64,000 nucleotides of DNA from Candidatus Zymogenus saltonus (GCA_016929395.1 JAFGIX010000040.1:1-64000), one strand, 5' to 3'; counted from the stretch's first letter, positions 57,260-64,000 are shown. The notes: generated from the sequence alone by a model not told the origin. Made by a program: numbers and translations.

Positions 57260-58120
57260 ATGAGATTTAGAAGGAAAAAAGAGATTAAATGCTCAACTGC
57301 TGGAAAGAACGACGAGCTCAGGACCGTAGACATTGACGGACTGACTATTTCGTACAAGATCAGCGGCTCCGGGCCGCCCCTGGTTTTTTTCCACGGCTGG
57401 GTAGGGCACGAAGACACCTTCGGCCTTTGCCACGAGGGTTTCGGACGGTACTTTACCGTCTATCGTCCCGCCTGGCCCGGATACGGCGGAAGCACCCCGA
57501 TGCCCGGTTTTACCGTCGAGGATTTCGTGGAGGTCGGAAGGAAATTCATGGACAAGCTGGGATTAAAAAACGTCACCCTGATAGGCAACTGTCTCGGTGG
57601 TAACGTGGCAATGGAGTTCGCCCAGCGCTATCCGAAATATTTGTCTAAAATGGTCTTGATCGAGATCCACGCGTACTTCCCTAACTACCTCTATCCCCTC
57701 CTGACACCGGGGCTGGGGGCGTTCATATACTGGTTCGTTTTCAAGAACATAACGATGTTTAACTTCCTCAACTCCTTTATTCCCCTTCAGCGAAAGGATC
57801 CAAGCGACGATTTTCCCTATACATGGGAGGGGTTTGAGAGAACGCGTATAAGGAGCTCTCTTGGCTTTTTGCGGGCGATCTACAGGTACTCCAAGAAAAT
57901 GGGGGACGATTATGTCGACAACTACAAGGTGGACGTGCCCATCCTTTACGTAGAGGGGGGAAAGACCTTCGGTCCGGTGGACGCCTTTTCTCAGAAGGTG
58001 AGGGAGCACTTCGATAACACCGAGATCATATCGTTGCCGGAGGCGGAGCACAACCCTGTATGCGAACAGCCGGAGTTATTCAACGAGCGGGTCCTCAGGA
58101 CGATGGGATTTGACGCATGA
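57260..58120 (+). CDS. Alpha/beta hydrolase with cysteine nucleophile
   Basis: A 286-residue alpha/beta-fold hydrolase. The oxyanion HG is at residues 45-46 (FFHGW), the nucleophile elbow is GNCLGG with Cys111 in place of the usual Ser, an Asp is likely in the ILYVEGGKTFGPVD region, and the catalytic His is His264 (EAEHNP). The Cys elbow recalls dienelactone hydrolases and PHA synthases. There is no signal peptide. It is a single gene convergent with the adenylate ligase. Substrate unknown. Confidence 0.82.
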   Translation: MRFRRKKEIKCSTAGKNDELRTVDIDGLTISYKISGSGPPLVFFHGWVGHEDTFGLCHEGFGRYFTVYRPAWPGYGGSTPMPGFTVEDFVEVGRKFMDKLGLKNVTLIGNCLGGNVAMEFAQRYPKYLSKMVLIEIHAYFPNYLYPLLTPGLGAFIYWFVFKNITMFNFLNSFIPLQRKDPSDDFPYTWEGFERTRIRSSLGFLRAIYRYSKKMGDDYVDNYKVDVPILYVEGGKTFGPVDAFSQKVREHFDNTEIISLPEAEHNPVCEQPELFNERVLRTMGFDA

Positions 58121-58545: not shown

Positions 58546-60096
58546 TCAGGAGCCTTGGTATTTTTCCGTCAAGAGGTATTTCTTGATTTTCCCCGTGGGG
58601 GTTCTGGGTAAGTTTGTGGTAAAGATGAACTTCTTTGGCGTCTCGATGGCATCGAGTCTTTCTGAGCAGAATCGATGAAGACCTTTTTTTGTTATGTCCA
58701 TTCTGGGATTTCTCATCACGACGGCCGTTAGTATTTCCTCCCCCCGCTTGCCTTTGAGGACGATCACGGCGCAGTCAATTACCGCCTCATTCGATTTTAT
58801 GACGTTTTCCACATCCAGTGAAGAGATGCTGCTGTTCCCAATGGTCAACGTGTCCTCCCTCCTCCCCACAACGTAAAGGAATCCGTCTTCATCGAGTCTG
58901 CCTATATCACCGGTGTGGAACCAGCCGTCCACAATGGTCTCCCTGGTTTTTTTGTCGTCCTTCAGGTATCCGGCCGTCAGGGCGATGCTCTTTGTCGCAA
59001 TCTCCCCGTTTTCCCCGATGGACATGTCTTTGCCGTCGTCATTTACGATTTTAACCTCCGCTCCAAAGTAGGGGGTGCCGACCGATCCCGGCTTTCTCCT
59101 CTTCTCCTCCGGCCCGATATTGGTCAACAACCCGCATTCCGAAAGCCCGTAGTATTCGTAAACGTTGGGGCAAAGACGCTCGTATATTTTCCCCAGGAGT
59201 TTTTCAGAAAGGGGGCCTCCCGTGAAGACCAAGCCCCTGAGAGAGGAGAGGTCGTATTTGTCGAGGTCGGGGAGCTTCATGATGACGGAGGCTATGATGG
59301 GGATCCAGGTCGTGATGGTGACCTTCTCCTCTTGGATTACCTCGAGGATCTTTATCGGATCGAAGTTAATGATCACGTTTTTCGCCCCGGTGAAGAGCCC
59401 CACCCCGCACCAGCTGAAACCCGACCTCCCCGTTATCGGCATGACGGTAAGGATAATGTCTTTTTCGGTCACATCGTGGGCGAAGGCGAAAATGGGAAGC
59501 GCCGCGAAGTTGGCGCCGTGGGTTATAAAGAAGGGTTTCGGCAGTCCCGTCGTTCCCGATGTCATGTTGATGAACTCGTTGTCTCGGCCCGTCACGGCAA
59601 CATCCGGCTCACCCTTTGACGCCCCGGATATTAATTCTTCATAGGATATGGCAAATTCGGGAAGGAGGTCGCCGACGTATATATAGCGCCTGACATTGGG
59701 GAGGGAATCGACGGCCCTGTGGAGCAGATCCCTCGAGTCTTCGCAGAAGATTACGGTTTCGGCATCCGACAGGTTTATGTAATTGACCATTTGCGGCCGT
59801 TCCATCCTGCAGTTGAGGGGAACGCCTATGACACCTATCTTTGCCAGCGCCCCGTATGTCTCGAATATTTCGGCCCGGTTATCGACCAGGAAGGCGCAGG
59901 TGTCCCCTTTTTTCAACCCCATTTGGAGGAGTCCGTTGCCGAGGCCGTTGACGCGGTCGTTAAATTCGGCGAAGGTAAACCTCCTTCCCGTCTTGACGCA
60001 GTATATCGCTTCCCTGTCACCGTATTTTACGGAGGCGATCCTTGGGAAATTTCCTACTCCTATCTCTTGTTCCGAGTGACTCATTTTTCTATTCAA
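58546..60096 (-). CDS. Class I adenylate-forming ligase (acyl-CoA synthetase family)
   Basis: A 516-residue enzyme that would activate a carboxylate as an acyl-adenylate and then transfer it to CoA or another acceptor. The phosphate loop MTSGTTGLPKP (near residue 182), the YGLSECG motif, GWFHTGDIG and the hinge GRREDT are present, and the C-terminal Lys lies in TPTGKIKK. It starts 9 bases after the S26-type peptidase gene, so it probably belongs to the peptide-natural-product operon, where it might acylate or cap the product. A free-standing fatty-acid role is the alternative. Confidence 0.88.
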   Translation of the reverse strand: MNRKMSHSEQEIGVGNFPRIASVKYGDREAIYCVKTGRRFTFAEFNDRVNGLGNGLLQMGLKKGDTCAFLVDNRAEIFETYGALAKIGVIGVPLNCRMERPQMVNYINLSDAETVIFCEDSRDLLHRAVDSLPNVRRYIYVGDLLPEFAISYEELISGASKGEPDVAVTGRDNEFINMTSGTTGLPKPFFITHGANFAALPIFAFAHDVTEKDIILTVMPITGRSGFSWCGVGLFTGAKNVIINFDPIKILEVIQEEKVTITTWIPIIASVIMKLPDLDKYDLSSLRGLVFTGGPLSEKLLGKIYERLCPNVYEYYGLSECGLLTNIGPEEKRRKPGSVGTPYFGAEVKIVNDDGKDMSIGENGEIATKSIALTAGYLKDDKKTRETIVDGWFHTGDIGRLDEDGFLYVVGRREDTLTIGNSSISSLDVENVIKSNEAVIDCAVIVLKGKRGEEILTAVVMRNPRMDITKKGLHRFCSERLDAIETPKKFIFTTNLPRTPTGKIKKYLLTEKYQGS

Positions 60097-60105
60097 GAAC
60101 GGGAT

Positions 60106-60525
60106 CTAACGAATTATGAAACGCTTGAGACCTCGCCCGATCCACCCCTTTACGATTCCGAAGGTAAGATTGGAGGAGCTCAGACAGGCGTGGATTCGGC
60201 CGAATCCGGGTTTTATAAGATCGCTGCCCCCGCGTTTTATCATAACGACCTTGAGGATTCCGTCGCCGTTGAGGATTCGGGGGGTATCGGGACTGGTCAT
60301 GTTGTCCCCCTTGGTTGTAACCGTGAGGTCTTTTTCGTTTTCAATGATATTGATAACGCGATGGGCCGTGTAGCTCTCCTCTTGAGAAAAGCAGACTATG
60401 TCGCCGAGTTTGATGTCTCCCCCCTTTCCGTTTACCTTTTTGACGATGAGAGTGTCACCGGGCCTCAAGGCCGGGTACATGCTGTAGCCGCAGAAGGGGA
60501 TGGACCTGATATTTACCGGTCTCAC
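60106..60525 (-). CDS. S24/S26 (SipW-like) peptidase, probable leader protease
   Basis: A 139-residue protease-like protein. The catalytic Ser15 is in GYSMYPALRPGD, and the segment TAHRVI carries His55 where bacterial signal peptidase I has Lys, which indicates the Ser-His (SipW/ER) type; TKGDNMTSPD is the third motif. No clear membrane anchor is seen, so it may act in the cytoplasm or peripherally. It is encoded 14 bases after the Cys-rich precursor, the usual place for a RiPP leader peptidase. Confidence 0.75.
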   Translation of the reverse strand: MRPVNIRSIPFCGYSMYPALRPGDTLIVKKVNGKGGDIKLGDIVCFSQEESYTAHRVINIIENEKDLTVTTKGDNMTSPDTPRILNGDGILKVVMIKRGGSDLIKPGFGRIHACLSSSNLTFGIVKGWIGRGLKRFIIR

Positions 60526-60539
60526 AAATAGTCCTAAAG

Positions 60540-60797
60540 TTATGGTTTAAAGCCGCCTACGCATCCGGCTCCGGAGGGGATACCTCCACCCCTGCATCCC
60601 AGGGCGTTATAATTCCCATCCAAGCATTGACCCGCATAAGGATTCCCGCCCCCGCCGCAGTTTCCCGTGGCCTGTCCGCCGCCGCCGCATGAGCTGGAGG
60701 CCCGATTTCCGCCGCCGCACATTGATTGTCCCAGAGCTTGGGCCTTGTCAACATCGAGGTCTATCACCATCGGAGGCTCATAAATTTTCTTCTTCAT
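60540..60797 (-). CDS. Candidate RiPP precursor peptide with periodic cysteines
   Basis: An 85-residue peptide with a charged leader (KKKIYEPPMVIDLD) and a Gly-rich core. Six cysteines at 27, 37, 47, 58, 68 and 79 are 10-11 residues apart, most followed by GGG. The YxxPxV pattern in residues 6-11 resembles leader elements bound by PqqD/RRE-type domains in other RiPP systems. The leader contains DKAQALGQ, where the peptidase could cut. GGTGAG lies about 8 bases before ATG 60797. It is followed by the peptidase and preceded by an HPr-kinase-like gene and two radical SAM genes. No close family is recognised. Confidence 0.82.
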   Translation of the reverse strand: MKKKIYEPPMVIDLDVDKAQALGQSMCGGGNRASSSCGGGGQATGNCGGGGNPYAGQCLDGNYNALGCRGGGIPSGAGCVGGFKP

Positions 60798-60879
60798 AAA
60801 AATAGCTCACCTATAGTTATTTTTAAAGTAATACCTTGGTTATTTAAAAAATCTCTGACCATATTTGCTTTACACGTTA

Positions 60880-61041
60880 TTAATTACCGCCCACCCCGGA
60901 TCCGCTGTAAATTGTCCCTCCGCTGCGGCAATTCCCCTCGGCGGCGGAGCCGATTCTGTATTGTCCGACGACCGAATCTCCTTTCGAATATCTCCCTTCA
61001 GAGGCGGCTTCCGTCTCGATTGACCGACAGCTAAGATCCAA
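60880..61041 (-). CDS. Possible second precursor or decayed peptide (53 codons, TTG start)
   Basis: Between the P-loop gene and the precursor a minus-strand frame of 53 codons, from TTG 61041 to TAA 60880-60882, encodes a Gly/Ser-rich peptide with two cysteines at residues 5 and 38. Its end, AEGNCRSGGTIYSGSGVGGN, resembles the GNCGGGGNPYAGQC part of the main precursor. There is no strong ribosome binding site and no ATG, so it could be a pseudogene. The frame is continuous with that of the preceding P-loop protein beyond its TGA. Confidence 0.35.
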   Translation of the reverse strand: MDLSCRSIETEAASEGRYSKGDSVVGQYRIGSAAEGNCRSGGTIYSGSGVGGN

Positions 61042-61053
61042 ACCTTGCCGGGC

Positions 61054-62085
61054 TCAATGATCGTCGGACATTGACATGAATTCTTTTCGCCTATCTCCTC
61101 TTTTATATCCTCCCTCTCCGAAGAAAGTCAAAGGATTTATGTAACGGGTAAAGTGGAGATTATAAAAGGGAAAACGCTCCACAATCTCCTTGACCGATAT
61201 AAAGGTCTCCTTCGCCTCTTTTCCCGGAAAATATCTAAAAAAGTGGATGTGATTGTGCATAATCCTCAGAATCGCCTCTCCTGGCTTCACCTCTTCCACG
61301 AAGTTGTCCTTATCTTTTATCAGGAAGAAAAACCTCTTTGCCTGGATAAGCTCCCCCCTGTTCTCTCTGCTTGGCACCTGGGTAAAGGGGGATGGCATCG
61401 TACAGTAGTCCTTCCCCCGCCTAAAGCAGAGCGATCCGTCGTCGGCCAGAAGCCTCTTCCTCCCCATTAGATCGGCGATGGTGCTCTTTCCCGCCCCTGA
61501 CCCGCCGAAAAAGATATAACCCCCGCCGTCGATCTCCGCCGAACAGGCGTGAAGCATCATCCCATTGTACAGCGGGGCGAACAGCCCCACAGCCGCCTGA
61601 ACGGCCAGGGATACACTGGAGACGGTATCGCTGAAGTCTCCCTCTAATATCAGGACTTCGCCTTTGGGTTTTTCGTAGTCCGCAAACAGGAGGAACGAGT
61701 TATGATAAAAAACGGCCATCCTGTCCCTGCTTAAAAGGGGGATCAAAGAGGGCGATCCCAAAGCGGCCCCGTTCCCCCTTGAGCTCCTCAACAATGTTTT
61801 GGTCCTACGCCGTCTCCAGCCAGGTGAGACCTCGGTGAACGGGAAGCGTCCCTCGATTTTTAGAAAATAGTCCCTCAGTGCCCCGGCCTCGCCTCCACCG
61901 AAAAGCTTATCCAATGGGACGTCCGGGCGTTCCCGCACCACGAGGGGGATATTCATATTCCCCTCGGCTGAGAGGTAATCGGGGAAGATTTTACCGATTG
62001 CCCCCGCATATCGATCCGATTCTTTCCCCGTAAATTTTATTTCGAGCTTTACGCCTCCGATGTCGATGTTGGTCGAACCCATCAT
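61054..62085 (-). CDS. HPr-kinase-like P-loop protein of the peptide cluster
   Basis: A 343-residue protein with an N-terminal region of no clear family and a C-terminal P-loop kinase domain like HPr kinase/phosphorylase: MLHACSAEI at about 177-185, Walker A GGSGAGKS at 194-201 and LLADDGSLCF at 212-221. Such proteins occur in RiPP clusters (HprK-related and ScmC-type), where they are thought to phosphorylate or bind the peptide. The gene lies 41 bases after the second radical SAM gene and upstream of the precursor. Confidence 0.75.
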   Translation of the reverse strand: MMGSTNIDIGGVKLEIKFTGKESDRYAGAIGKIFPDYLSAEGNMNIPLVVRERPDVPLDKLFGGGEAGALRDYFLKIEGRFPFTEVSPGWRRRRTKTLLRSSRGNGAALGSPSLIPLLSRDRMAVFYHNSFLLFADYEKPKGEVLILEGDFSDTVSSVSLAVQAAVGLFAPLYNGMMLHACSAEIDGGGYIFFGGSGAGKSTIADLMGRKRLLADDGSLCFRRGKDYCTMPSPFTQVPSRENRGELIQAKRFFFLIKDKDNFVEEVKPGEAILRIMHNHIHFFRYFPGKEAKETFISVKEIVERFPFYNLHFTRYINPLTFFGEGGYKRGDRRKEFMSMSDDH

Positions 62086-62126
62086 CCTCTTTTCACAATA
62101 TTATTATACAAACATCCTTTTAGAAA

Positions 62127-63251
62127 TTATTTCTTTGTGCCAAATTTTCGATCTTGATCATCATCACTCCAGATAATCCTCGTCTCCGGGAAGAGGCCCA
62201 TCTCGTACGCCTCCTGACAGATGCGGTCAGGGGCGGAGAGGTCCCCGTGAAGCACGTAGGCGTTCGCCCTGCACGACCCGAGGCACAACCCCTTAAGGAT
62301 GCACATCCCGCAGATCCCCTTCATATTGTCGGGCACGATCCTCCTCAACTCCGATAAGACGGGGCTGTTTCTCCACACATCTTCCAGATTGTCCTCCCTG
62401 ATGTTCCCTATGACAAGGTCCGGCACCTCCTTCCCTATCCCGCAGATCGATATGTGCCCGGATGCGATTACGCCGATTATGTTGAGGATGTGGCATTGGG
62501 CGTTGTTCCCCTTGAAAAAGGAGTCTATCTTCTTGAAGGCCGTCGGGATGGTGAAAAACGTCTTGATCCGATACTTCTCGTTCAACTCTTTCTCGGCCCA
62601 TGAGGATAGCCTGATAAGCTCGTCGACCGGGATCGTTTTTCCCCCCTCCGTCAGCTTTTCCCCCCTCCCTACCGGCATGACCGGGTTGAACTTGACCGAG
62701 TCGGCGTTGAGGCGCCTTGCCATGGCGACAACCCCCTCGATGTCCCCGGAGTTGTCCCCAATCAGGCTCATGATGATCTGCACCTTTAACCCCTGGCTCA
62801 CCATATGTTCGACGCCTCTTACCGCGTCTTCCCAAGACCCCTCAACGCCCCTAAAGGAGTCGTGAAACCGGGGGTCGGAGCCGTCGATGCTGACGCTTAT
62901 CGAGGAAGCGTTGCTGCGCTTTAAAAAGGCCGCCGTTTTTTCGTCTATCAATGTCCCGTTTGTCTCGATATCCAGCACAAGCTCTTCCGACGACACCACC
63001 TCGATTATCTCGAATATATCCCTGTTCAGAAACGGCTCCCCACCGGTGAGTTTGATATTGAAAAGGCCTATCGGCCTTCCCTCCTTGATGATTTTCCTTA
63101 CGTCGTCCGCCGTTATCCCTTCTGGGGCCTCTTCGGTCTCCGGCACGAAGCTCGGGGTCAGCCAGCAGTGGGAGCACTTGAGGTTACAGCCGGAGGTTAG
63201 GTAGAGATAGGCCGAATTCAATCGATAGCTCGGTTTTTCATCCGACACCAT
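62127..63251 (-). CDS. Radical SAM/SPASM maturase
   Basis: A 374-residue radical SAM enzyme. The cluster motif CNLKCSHC (Cys22, 26, 29) starts near the N-terminus, LTGGEPFLN carries the SAM-binding GGE, and the C-terminal SPASM region has CHILN, ICGIGK, CGMCILKGLCLGSC and a late ICQEAY cysteine that would hold auxiliary clusters. Such enzymes make thioether or C-C links in peptides. ATG 63251 has GGAG 7 bases upstream and overlaps the previous gene by 14 bases. Confidence 0.88.
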   Translation of the reverse strand: MVSDEKPSYRLNSAYLYLTSGCNLKCSHCWLTPSFVPETEEAPEGITADDVRKIIKEGRPIGLFNIKLTGGEPFLNRDIFEIIEVVSSEELVLDIETNGTLIDEKTAAFLKRSNASSISVSIDGSDPRFHDSFRGVEGSWEDAVRGVEHMVSQGLKVQIIMSLIGDNSGDIEGVVAMARRLNADSVKFNPVMPVGRGEKLTEGGKTIPVDELIRLSSWAEKELNEKYRIKTFFTIPTAFKKIDSFFKGNNAQCHILNIIGVIASGHISICGIGKEVPDLVIGNIREDNLEDVWRNSPVLSELRRIVPDNMKGICGMCILKGLCLGSCRANAYVLHGDLSAPDRICQEAYEMGLFPETRIIWSDDDQDRKFGTKK

Positions 63252-64000
63252 CTTTAAGCTCCTCGGAGTAAAGCTTGTAACAGCAGAACGGATCCCTGGC
63301 GAGCATTGTTCCGTAAGTGTAATACGCCGAGGCGGGGCACCCGGCCGTGCACAGGGGGGCGTACCGGCAATCCTTGCAGGTGGAAAGGCTTGTTACAGGC
63401 GTCGAGAATCTCCTTCTGAACTCCACGAAGGTCTCGGACTCCCTCCAGATGATATCGAGGGGGGTGTTGAGGATATTTCCGGCCGTGATCTCGGGGAGGC
63501 GGTCGCAGGGGACCGCCCAGCCGTCGGGCCTTATGGCGCACTGGTTCCTTAAAGCGCCGCAGCCGGAGAGGAAGTGGGTGTCCGGATCATAATCTTTAAG
63601 GTCATACTGCTTTATGTTTCTTATCCCCTCGAAAATATCGTCCATCTCAAAAAAAGTTCCGGAGATAAACGGGTAATCCGCCCTTATCTTCTTTAACTCC
63701 TCGACTATCCCTTTTACCTCAAGGGCGTTTAGCTTGAGCTCCTCCATATATTTTAGGCCCCGCCCCTCGTATAACAGGTAGTTGAACTTCATGCTCGAAA
63801 TTCCCGTCTCTCCCGCTAGTTTTGCTGCGGCCCTAAGCTCTTTGAAATTGAGCCGGGTTACGGTGCAGTAGGCGCTGACATCGTGCCCGAATCGTATAAG
63901 GTGCTCGATCCCGTTAAGGGCCGCCTCGAAAGCCCCGATTCCCCTCAGGAGGTCATGGGAGCCTGGGGTAGCCCCGTCGATGCTGACCATTATGTCGTCC
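63238..64000 (-). CDS. Second radical SAM/SPASM protein (N-terminus beyond window)
   Basis: The visible 254 residues start within the radical SAM barrel (DDIMVSIDGATPGSHD, matching the usual SIDG strand) and end with a SPASM region: SGCGAL, CAIRPDGWAVPCDRLPE, CKDCRYAPLCTAGCP and FCCYKL. The CxxxCxxC motif must lie beyond position 64000. The frame is open to the edge. It overlaps the start of the next maturase by 14 bases, so the two enzymes are coupled. Confidence 0.85.
   Translation of the reverse strand, partial: DDIMVSIDGATPGSHDLLRGIGAFEAALNGIEHLIRFGHDVSAYCTVTRLNFKELRAAAKLAGETGISSMKFNYLLYEGRGLKYMEELKLNALEVKGIVEELKKIRADYPFISGTFFEMDDIFEGIRNIKQYDLKDYDPDTHFLSGCGALRNQCAIRPDGWAVPCDRLPEITAGNILNTPLDIIWRESETFVEFRRRFSTPVTSLSTCKDCRYAPLCTAGCPASAYYTYGTMLARDPFCCYKLYSEELKDGVG

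Follow-up and report, generated by a model that had tools for sequence, protein, structure and literature searches.

A probable RiPP operon of the Scm type with a Cys-periodic precursor in Candidatus Zymogenus saltonus

In a 64,000-nucleotide stretch of Candidatus Zymogenus saltonus DNA (the window, part of contig C40 of a 3.76-Mb genome), we find a minus-strand operon that is very probably a RiPP operon of the Scm type, with an 85-aa peptide as its precursor. This reading, put forward in the initial annotation from the window alone, is upheld both by the operon itself and by homologues of the precursor that accompany pairs of ScmE and ScmF enzymes in relatives. A precursor family that tracks these enzymes across a phylum makes the Scm-type cassette, whose product was previously unidentified, testable in the laboratory, and lasso-type accessory enzymes and S26 proteases are now linked to radical-SAM peptide chemistry. 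The cluster probably yields a small, chemically cross-linked peptide.

Operon architecture and relation to Scm cassettes

The operon extends beyond the window, up to contig position 66213 (the contig itself runs to 70078), and is ordered NTP_transf_5, PqqD, second PqqD, ScmE-like, ScmF-like, HPr-kinase-like, 85-aa precursor, S26 and acyl-CoA-ligase-like. By ascending coordinate, its features are:

58546..60096, minus strand: AMP-binding acyl-CoA-ligase-like enzyme, 516 aa (PF00501, 220 bits)
60106..60525, minus strand: soluble peptidase of the S26 (Ser/His) type, putatively removing the leader, 139 aa (TIGR02228, 56.9 bits)
60540..60797, minus strand: precursor peptide, 85 aa, leader MKKKIYEPPMVIDLDVDKAQALGQSM followed by six CxxG units (plan common to 25 curated relatives; G087 orthologue)
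60798..61053, minus strand: 256-bp gap from kinase to precursor (aligns weakly with the additional precursor-like gene of L072)
61054..62085, minus strand: HPr-kinase/PEPCK-like P-loop protein, putative peptide kinase, 343 aa (invariant residues, profile, fold)
62127..63251, minus strand: ScmF-like radical SAM/SPASM enzyme, 374 aa (TIGR04251, motifs, F clade)
63238..64000 and on to contig position 64398, minus strand: ScmE-like radical SAM/SPASM enzyme, 386 aa (TIGR04250, E clade)
Contig 64438-64716, past the window, minus strand: PqqD (PF05402)
Contig 64703-65065, past the window, minus strand: second, weaker PqqD (PF05402, 25.4 bits against a gathering threshold of 23.4)
Contig 65065-66213, past the window, minus strand: NTP_transf_5 nucleotidyltransferase (PF14907)

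All six genes that the initial annotation had described as packed on one strand are present on the minus strand where it placed them, and the packing itself is mostly as described (spacings of 9-41 bp, or overlaps of 1-14 bp), except for the 256 bp between kinase and precursor. The domain calls were likewise borne out (AMP-binding, S26/S24, Radical_SAM and SPASM), the weak match of the HPrK P-loop becoming firmer by profile and fold. The transporter that was thought perhaps to lie beyond 64000 did not appear: the contig continues with the two PqqDs and NTP_transf_5, followed by a divergent CoA-ligase gene, and no transporter gene stands next to the operon in the neighbourhood read past 64000. 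Just downstream of the operon, an alpha/beta hydrolase gene lies on the opposite strand (57260-58120; PF00561, 66 bits) and, being convergent, is probably outside it.

Both radical SAM/SPASM enzymes of the operon retain intact CxxxCxxC and SPASM CX2CX5CX3C motifs. The models nearest to them are those of the Scm system, all below cut-off: the ScmF-like protein scores 373.8 bits with TIGR04251 and the ScmE-like protein 235 bits with TIGR04250 (cut-off 400 for each), and the cassette reaches 54/100 with the ScmD model and 17.8/125 with the ScmC model. In a tree of 63 relatives, obtained with a quick method and no bootstrap, an E clade and an F clade separate with an SH-aLRT of 99 each, and the window pair branches outside the subclades that hold canonical ScmE and ScmF. 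One cassette, L041, passes all four models (ScmD 112/100, ScmE 560/400, ScmF 527/400, ScmC 205/125) and carries two precursors of the window type. We class the window operon as a divergent sister of the Scm cassette and not as a strict equivalog, because it falls below the strict cut-offs yet has phylogeny, gene set and precursor type in common with L041. The resemblance to Scm cassettes first suggested by two SPASM enzymes beside a P-loop kinase thus agrees with the clades, the gene set and the L041 precursors, and the early impression that the precursor fits nothing recognised gives way, as canonical Scm cassettes carry one like it. To our knowledge, the NCBI Scm models were built without an identified precursor. 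Searches of plasmid and viral sequences with canonical ScmF came back empty.

The accessory proteins retain residues and folds of their families. In the kinase-like protein, H179, G199, K200 (the Walker A lysine) and D215 are invariant, a profile search finds HprK and PEPCK structures, and the predicted model (pLDDT 84) has PEPCK and HprK as closest folds at modest TM-scores, so that we regard it as a putative peptide kinase and distant counterpart of ScmC. The S26 protein exceeds its model's cut-off of 51.85, is SEC11-like with invariant S15 and H55, and has no predicted TM segment; the NTP_transf_5 protein retains K108-G109, R123, D127 and D129. Natural fusions join PqqD to PqqD (L036, L056), HPrK to S26 (L057, L058, L059), S26 to HPrK (L039) and S26 to NTP_transf_5 (L044). 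The AMP ligase directly follows S26 in the window, L072 and L037; no cassette outside the window's own family was seen to have it, and L036 lacks it. An ABC exporter occurs in many cassettes outside that family and not in the window operon.

A precursor family with a repeated Cys core

The window precursor has a lysine-rich leader that contains a YEPP motif and reaches the first Cys with A-L-G-Q-S-M; six CxxG units follow at intervals of 10-11 residues. Its orthologue in a genome of the same genus (G087) aligns without gaps at 70.6% identity and keeps 6/6 Cys and 6/6 Gly at +3; between the two, Cys, Gly+3 and position +6 are unchanged and +1, +4 and +5 vary, with a dN of 0.21 and a dS of 1.27 by NG86 (0.29 and 0.50 by YN00). 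An orthologue conserved in this way, together with the dN/dS values, means that the peptide is no chance ORF, and the comparison of the two sequences indicates that purifying selection maintains C, G+3 and the residue at +6.

Across 25 curated relatives, the window's own precursor included, we found a shared plan in which a YxxP leader, which we take to resemble the leaders of lasso peptides, precedes units of roughly ten residues with the pattern CxxGxx[A/P]. Gly stands at +3 of Cys in 128/144 cases, Ala or Pro at +6 in 93/144 units, and neighbouring Cys are 10-11 residues apart in 91 of 119 cases. None of the precursors that were tested matched an NCBIfam, Pfam or PHROGs model.

The relatives searched all come from one phylum, the exception being L003, whose phylum is unstated. 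The initial annotation would have fallen had homologues of the peptide never occurred beside radical SAM genes, but they do occur there: the same gene set surrounds ScmE/ScmF pairs in 25 loci (ScmE, ScmF and PqqD all present), and 23 of these have a like precursor. The one at L036 looks frameshifted, and those at L049 and L055 are short, weaker matches. Two cassette loci, L053 (G290) and L047 (G156), have no clear precursor, and each genome encodes one elsewhere. At the level of genomes, the precursor model matches 25 of 26 that are ScmF-positive, a number with some circularity in it, given that the training rows came from most of these same genomes; the unmatched one (G147) shows nothing but an isolated ScmF-like gene, on a short contig. 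The weight therefore falls on the controls and on leave-one-locus-out models. Two of 26 control genomes are matched, both explicably: in G087 the cassette is divided between contigs C201 and C283, and in G005 the match sits at a contig end. A leave-one-locus-out model, trained without sequences of the window's family, recovers the window peptide at 6.4e-8.

In G087, a second precursor-like gene lies between kinase and precursor (L072:4413-4838), with a single in-frame TAG right where leader meets core (AVGQ*RC) and, past it, an open core with many CxxG units; the TAG may reflect recent mutation, assembly error or readthrough. The window gap at 60798-61053 may be a decayed remnant of such a gene, as it aligns weakly with the L072 gene at the same place. 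A 53-aa ORF at 60880-61041, weighed as another candidate precursor, was ruled out, having neither leader nor Cys repeats. In G051, the precursor beside the cassette appears frameshifted (L036:11457-11660), and an intact-looking one is found on a different contig, with no recognisable cassette genes nearby (L073:9841-10047). A 20-kb stretch of G033 (L044) holds two adjacent Scm-type cassettes and three precursors; its enzymes look as if mixed and matched, since E and F of the first cassette fall in different subclades. The same locus combines AYA/VYA leaders with its S26-NTP_transf_5 fusion, and 'AYA' leader ends were dropped as a mark of cassettes lacking S26.

Proposed maturation and alternative chemistries

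In the scheme that we infer, from reaction type and acceptor atom to cleavage site, step order and biological role, one or both PqqDs would bind the YxxP leader and present the precursor to the ScmE-like and ScmF-like enzymes, which would act along the core repeatedly, one round per CxxGxx[A/P] unit. Each Cys sulfur would be joined to a nearby carbon, our best candidate being the alpha-carbon of the Gly at +3, so that the window peptide would hold as many as six small thioether rings. The soluble Ser/His S26 protease would cut the leader off just before the first Cys, a guessed site at which the leader end would suit a signal-peptidase-like enzyme. The HPrK-like kinase and NTP_transf_5 would add phosphate and a sugar or nucleotide; such tailoring of a lasso peptide has been proposed for PsmK and PsmN, and in lasso clusters precursor phosphorylation is the work of a kinase, and hexosylation of the resulting phosphopeptide has been tied to a nucleotidyltransferase homologue (PMC9266682).

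Taken whole, from leader binding and cross-linking to leader removal and tailoring, we consider this scheme the probable explanation, if by no wide measure. It leaves the AMP ligase without a place, and the unreached Scm cut-offs, the lack of an exporter in the operon and the frameshifted-looking precursor beside the L036 cassette speak against it. We give thioether formation by the two SPASM enzymes an even chance: one Cys is fixed in each unit, glycine is recorded as a thioether acceptor in sactipeptides (PMC8326336), and the best solved relative of the ScmF-like protein is the sactisynthase SkfB. The conserved Gly alone is no proof of an acceptor role.

The same operon and precursor could instead undergo a change that is not a thioether, such as C-C links, dehydrogenation or side-chain oxidation, with the Cys serving as disulfides or metal ligands. 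SPASM enzymes do form C-C and other bonds (PMC8326336), a related survey found a repeat peptide converted to cyclopropylglycine (PMC9062424), and AhbD, NirJ2 and the mycofactocin maturase are among the next-best models of the window enzymes; yet the Cys is the one nearly unchanging landmark of the units, single in each and unpaired, and the kinship with SkfB also argues for sulfur chemistry, so that we think such a change rather unlikely. We are less doubtful of a division of labour, which we hold to be possible though short of an even bet, with thioethers made by one radical SAM enzyme and some other kind of modification by its partner, for example at the A/P position. E and F form two deep, separate clades and both occur in nearly every cassette, which argues against simple redundancy, and most units bear A or P at +6; against it, the ruminococcin C pathway is known to have two thioether synthases (PMC8188230). 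A PQQ, heme or mycofactocin pathway as the home of the two enzymes, with the peptide incidental, is extremely improbable and refuted in practice by low scores and neighbourhood. Both are detectably homologous to PqqE, AhbD, NirJ and the mycofactocin maturase, but they lie far under the family cut-offs (for the ScmF-like protein, PqqE 100/381, AhbD 161/500, mycofactocin 124/265), the Scm E and F models score far higher, and the operon holds no partner gene of those pathways; the initial annotation's concern that the maturases might be of PQQ or heme type is thereby laid to rest.

Returning to repeated radical-SAM cross-linking of the core, we tentatively suggest, at somewhat less than even confidence, that Scm cassettes and the window variant form an unrecognised RiPP class, in which CxxGxx[A/P] units, each 10-11 residues long and at most about ten in number, are individually cross-linked by radical SAM chemistry and the peptide receives lasso-style tailoring by kinase and nucleotidyltransferase. 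The product might adopt a regular rod or solenoid fold, since small residues recur at every third position.

Comparison with known systems

Open-literature searches on Zymogenus, on ScmF and on combinations with HPr kinases, signal peptidases or Desulfobacterota returned nothing relevant, and SynChlorMet went unmentioned there, which is weak evidence that no Scm precursor had been identified. The available part of a survey of SPASM RiPP clusters (PMC9062424) describes no CxxG/HPrK cluster, and prior notice is possible.

Among established families, ranthipeptides (SCIFF, freyrasin and PapB type) likewise pair a radical SAM/SPASM enzyme with a multi-Cys core, but the window core has only one acidic residue and therefore no repeated Cys-to-Asp motif, and the PapB model stays below cut-off (ScmF-like 83.5/340, ScmE-like 77.9/340). 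Sactipeptides (subtilosin, SKF, ruminococcin C and streptosactin) also have a maturase of the radical SAM/SPASM type next to a precursor that contains Cys, whereas the window core is built of regularly repeating units of 10-11 residues, each with a single Cys, PqqD stands as a protein of its own and the thioethers are inferred. Those lasso peptides whose clusters encode a kinase and a nucleotidyltransferase (paeninodin, pseudomycoidin) share the PqqD-type binder, the HPrK-like kinase and the nucleotidyltransferase; unlike them, the window operon uses radical SAM enzymes and an S26 protease, and Pfam and NCBIfam scans of the nine operon proteins found neither lasso protease nor macrolactam cyclase. 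Whereas it differs from SynChlorMet (Scm; TIGR04248-TIGR04251) in its second PqqD, its added AMP ligase, its lack of an ABC exporter and its scores below the cut-offs of all four models, the window operon shares with that system two SPASM enzymes of the E and F clades, PqqD, an HPrK-like protein and a precursor of the L041 type.
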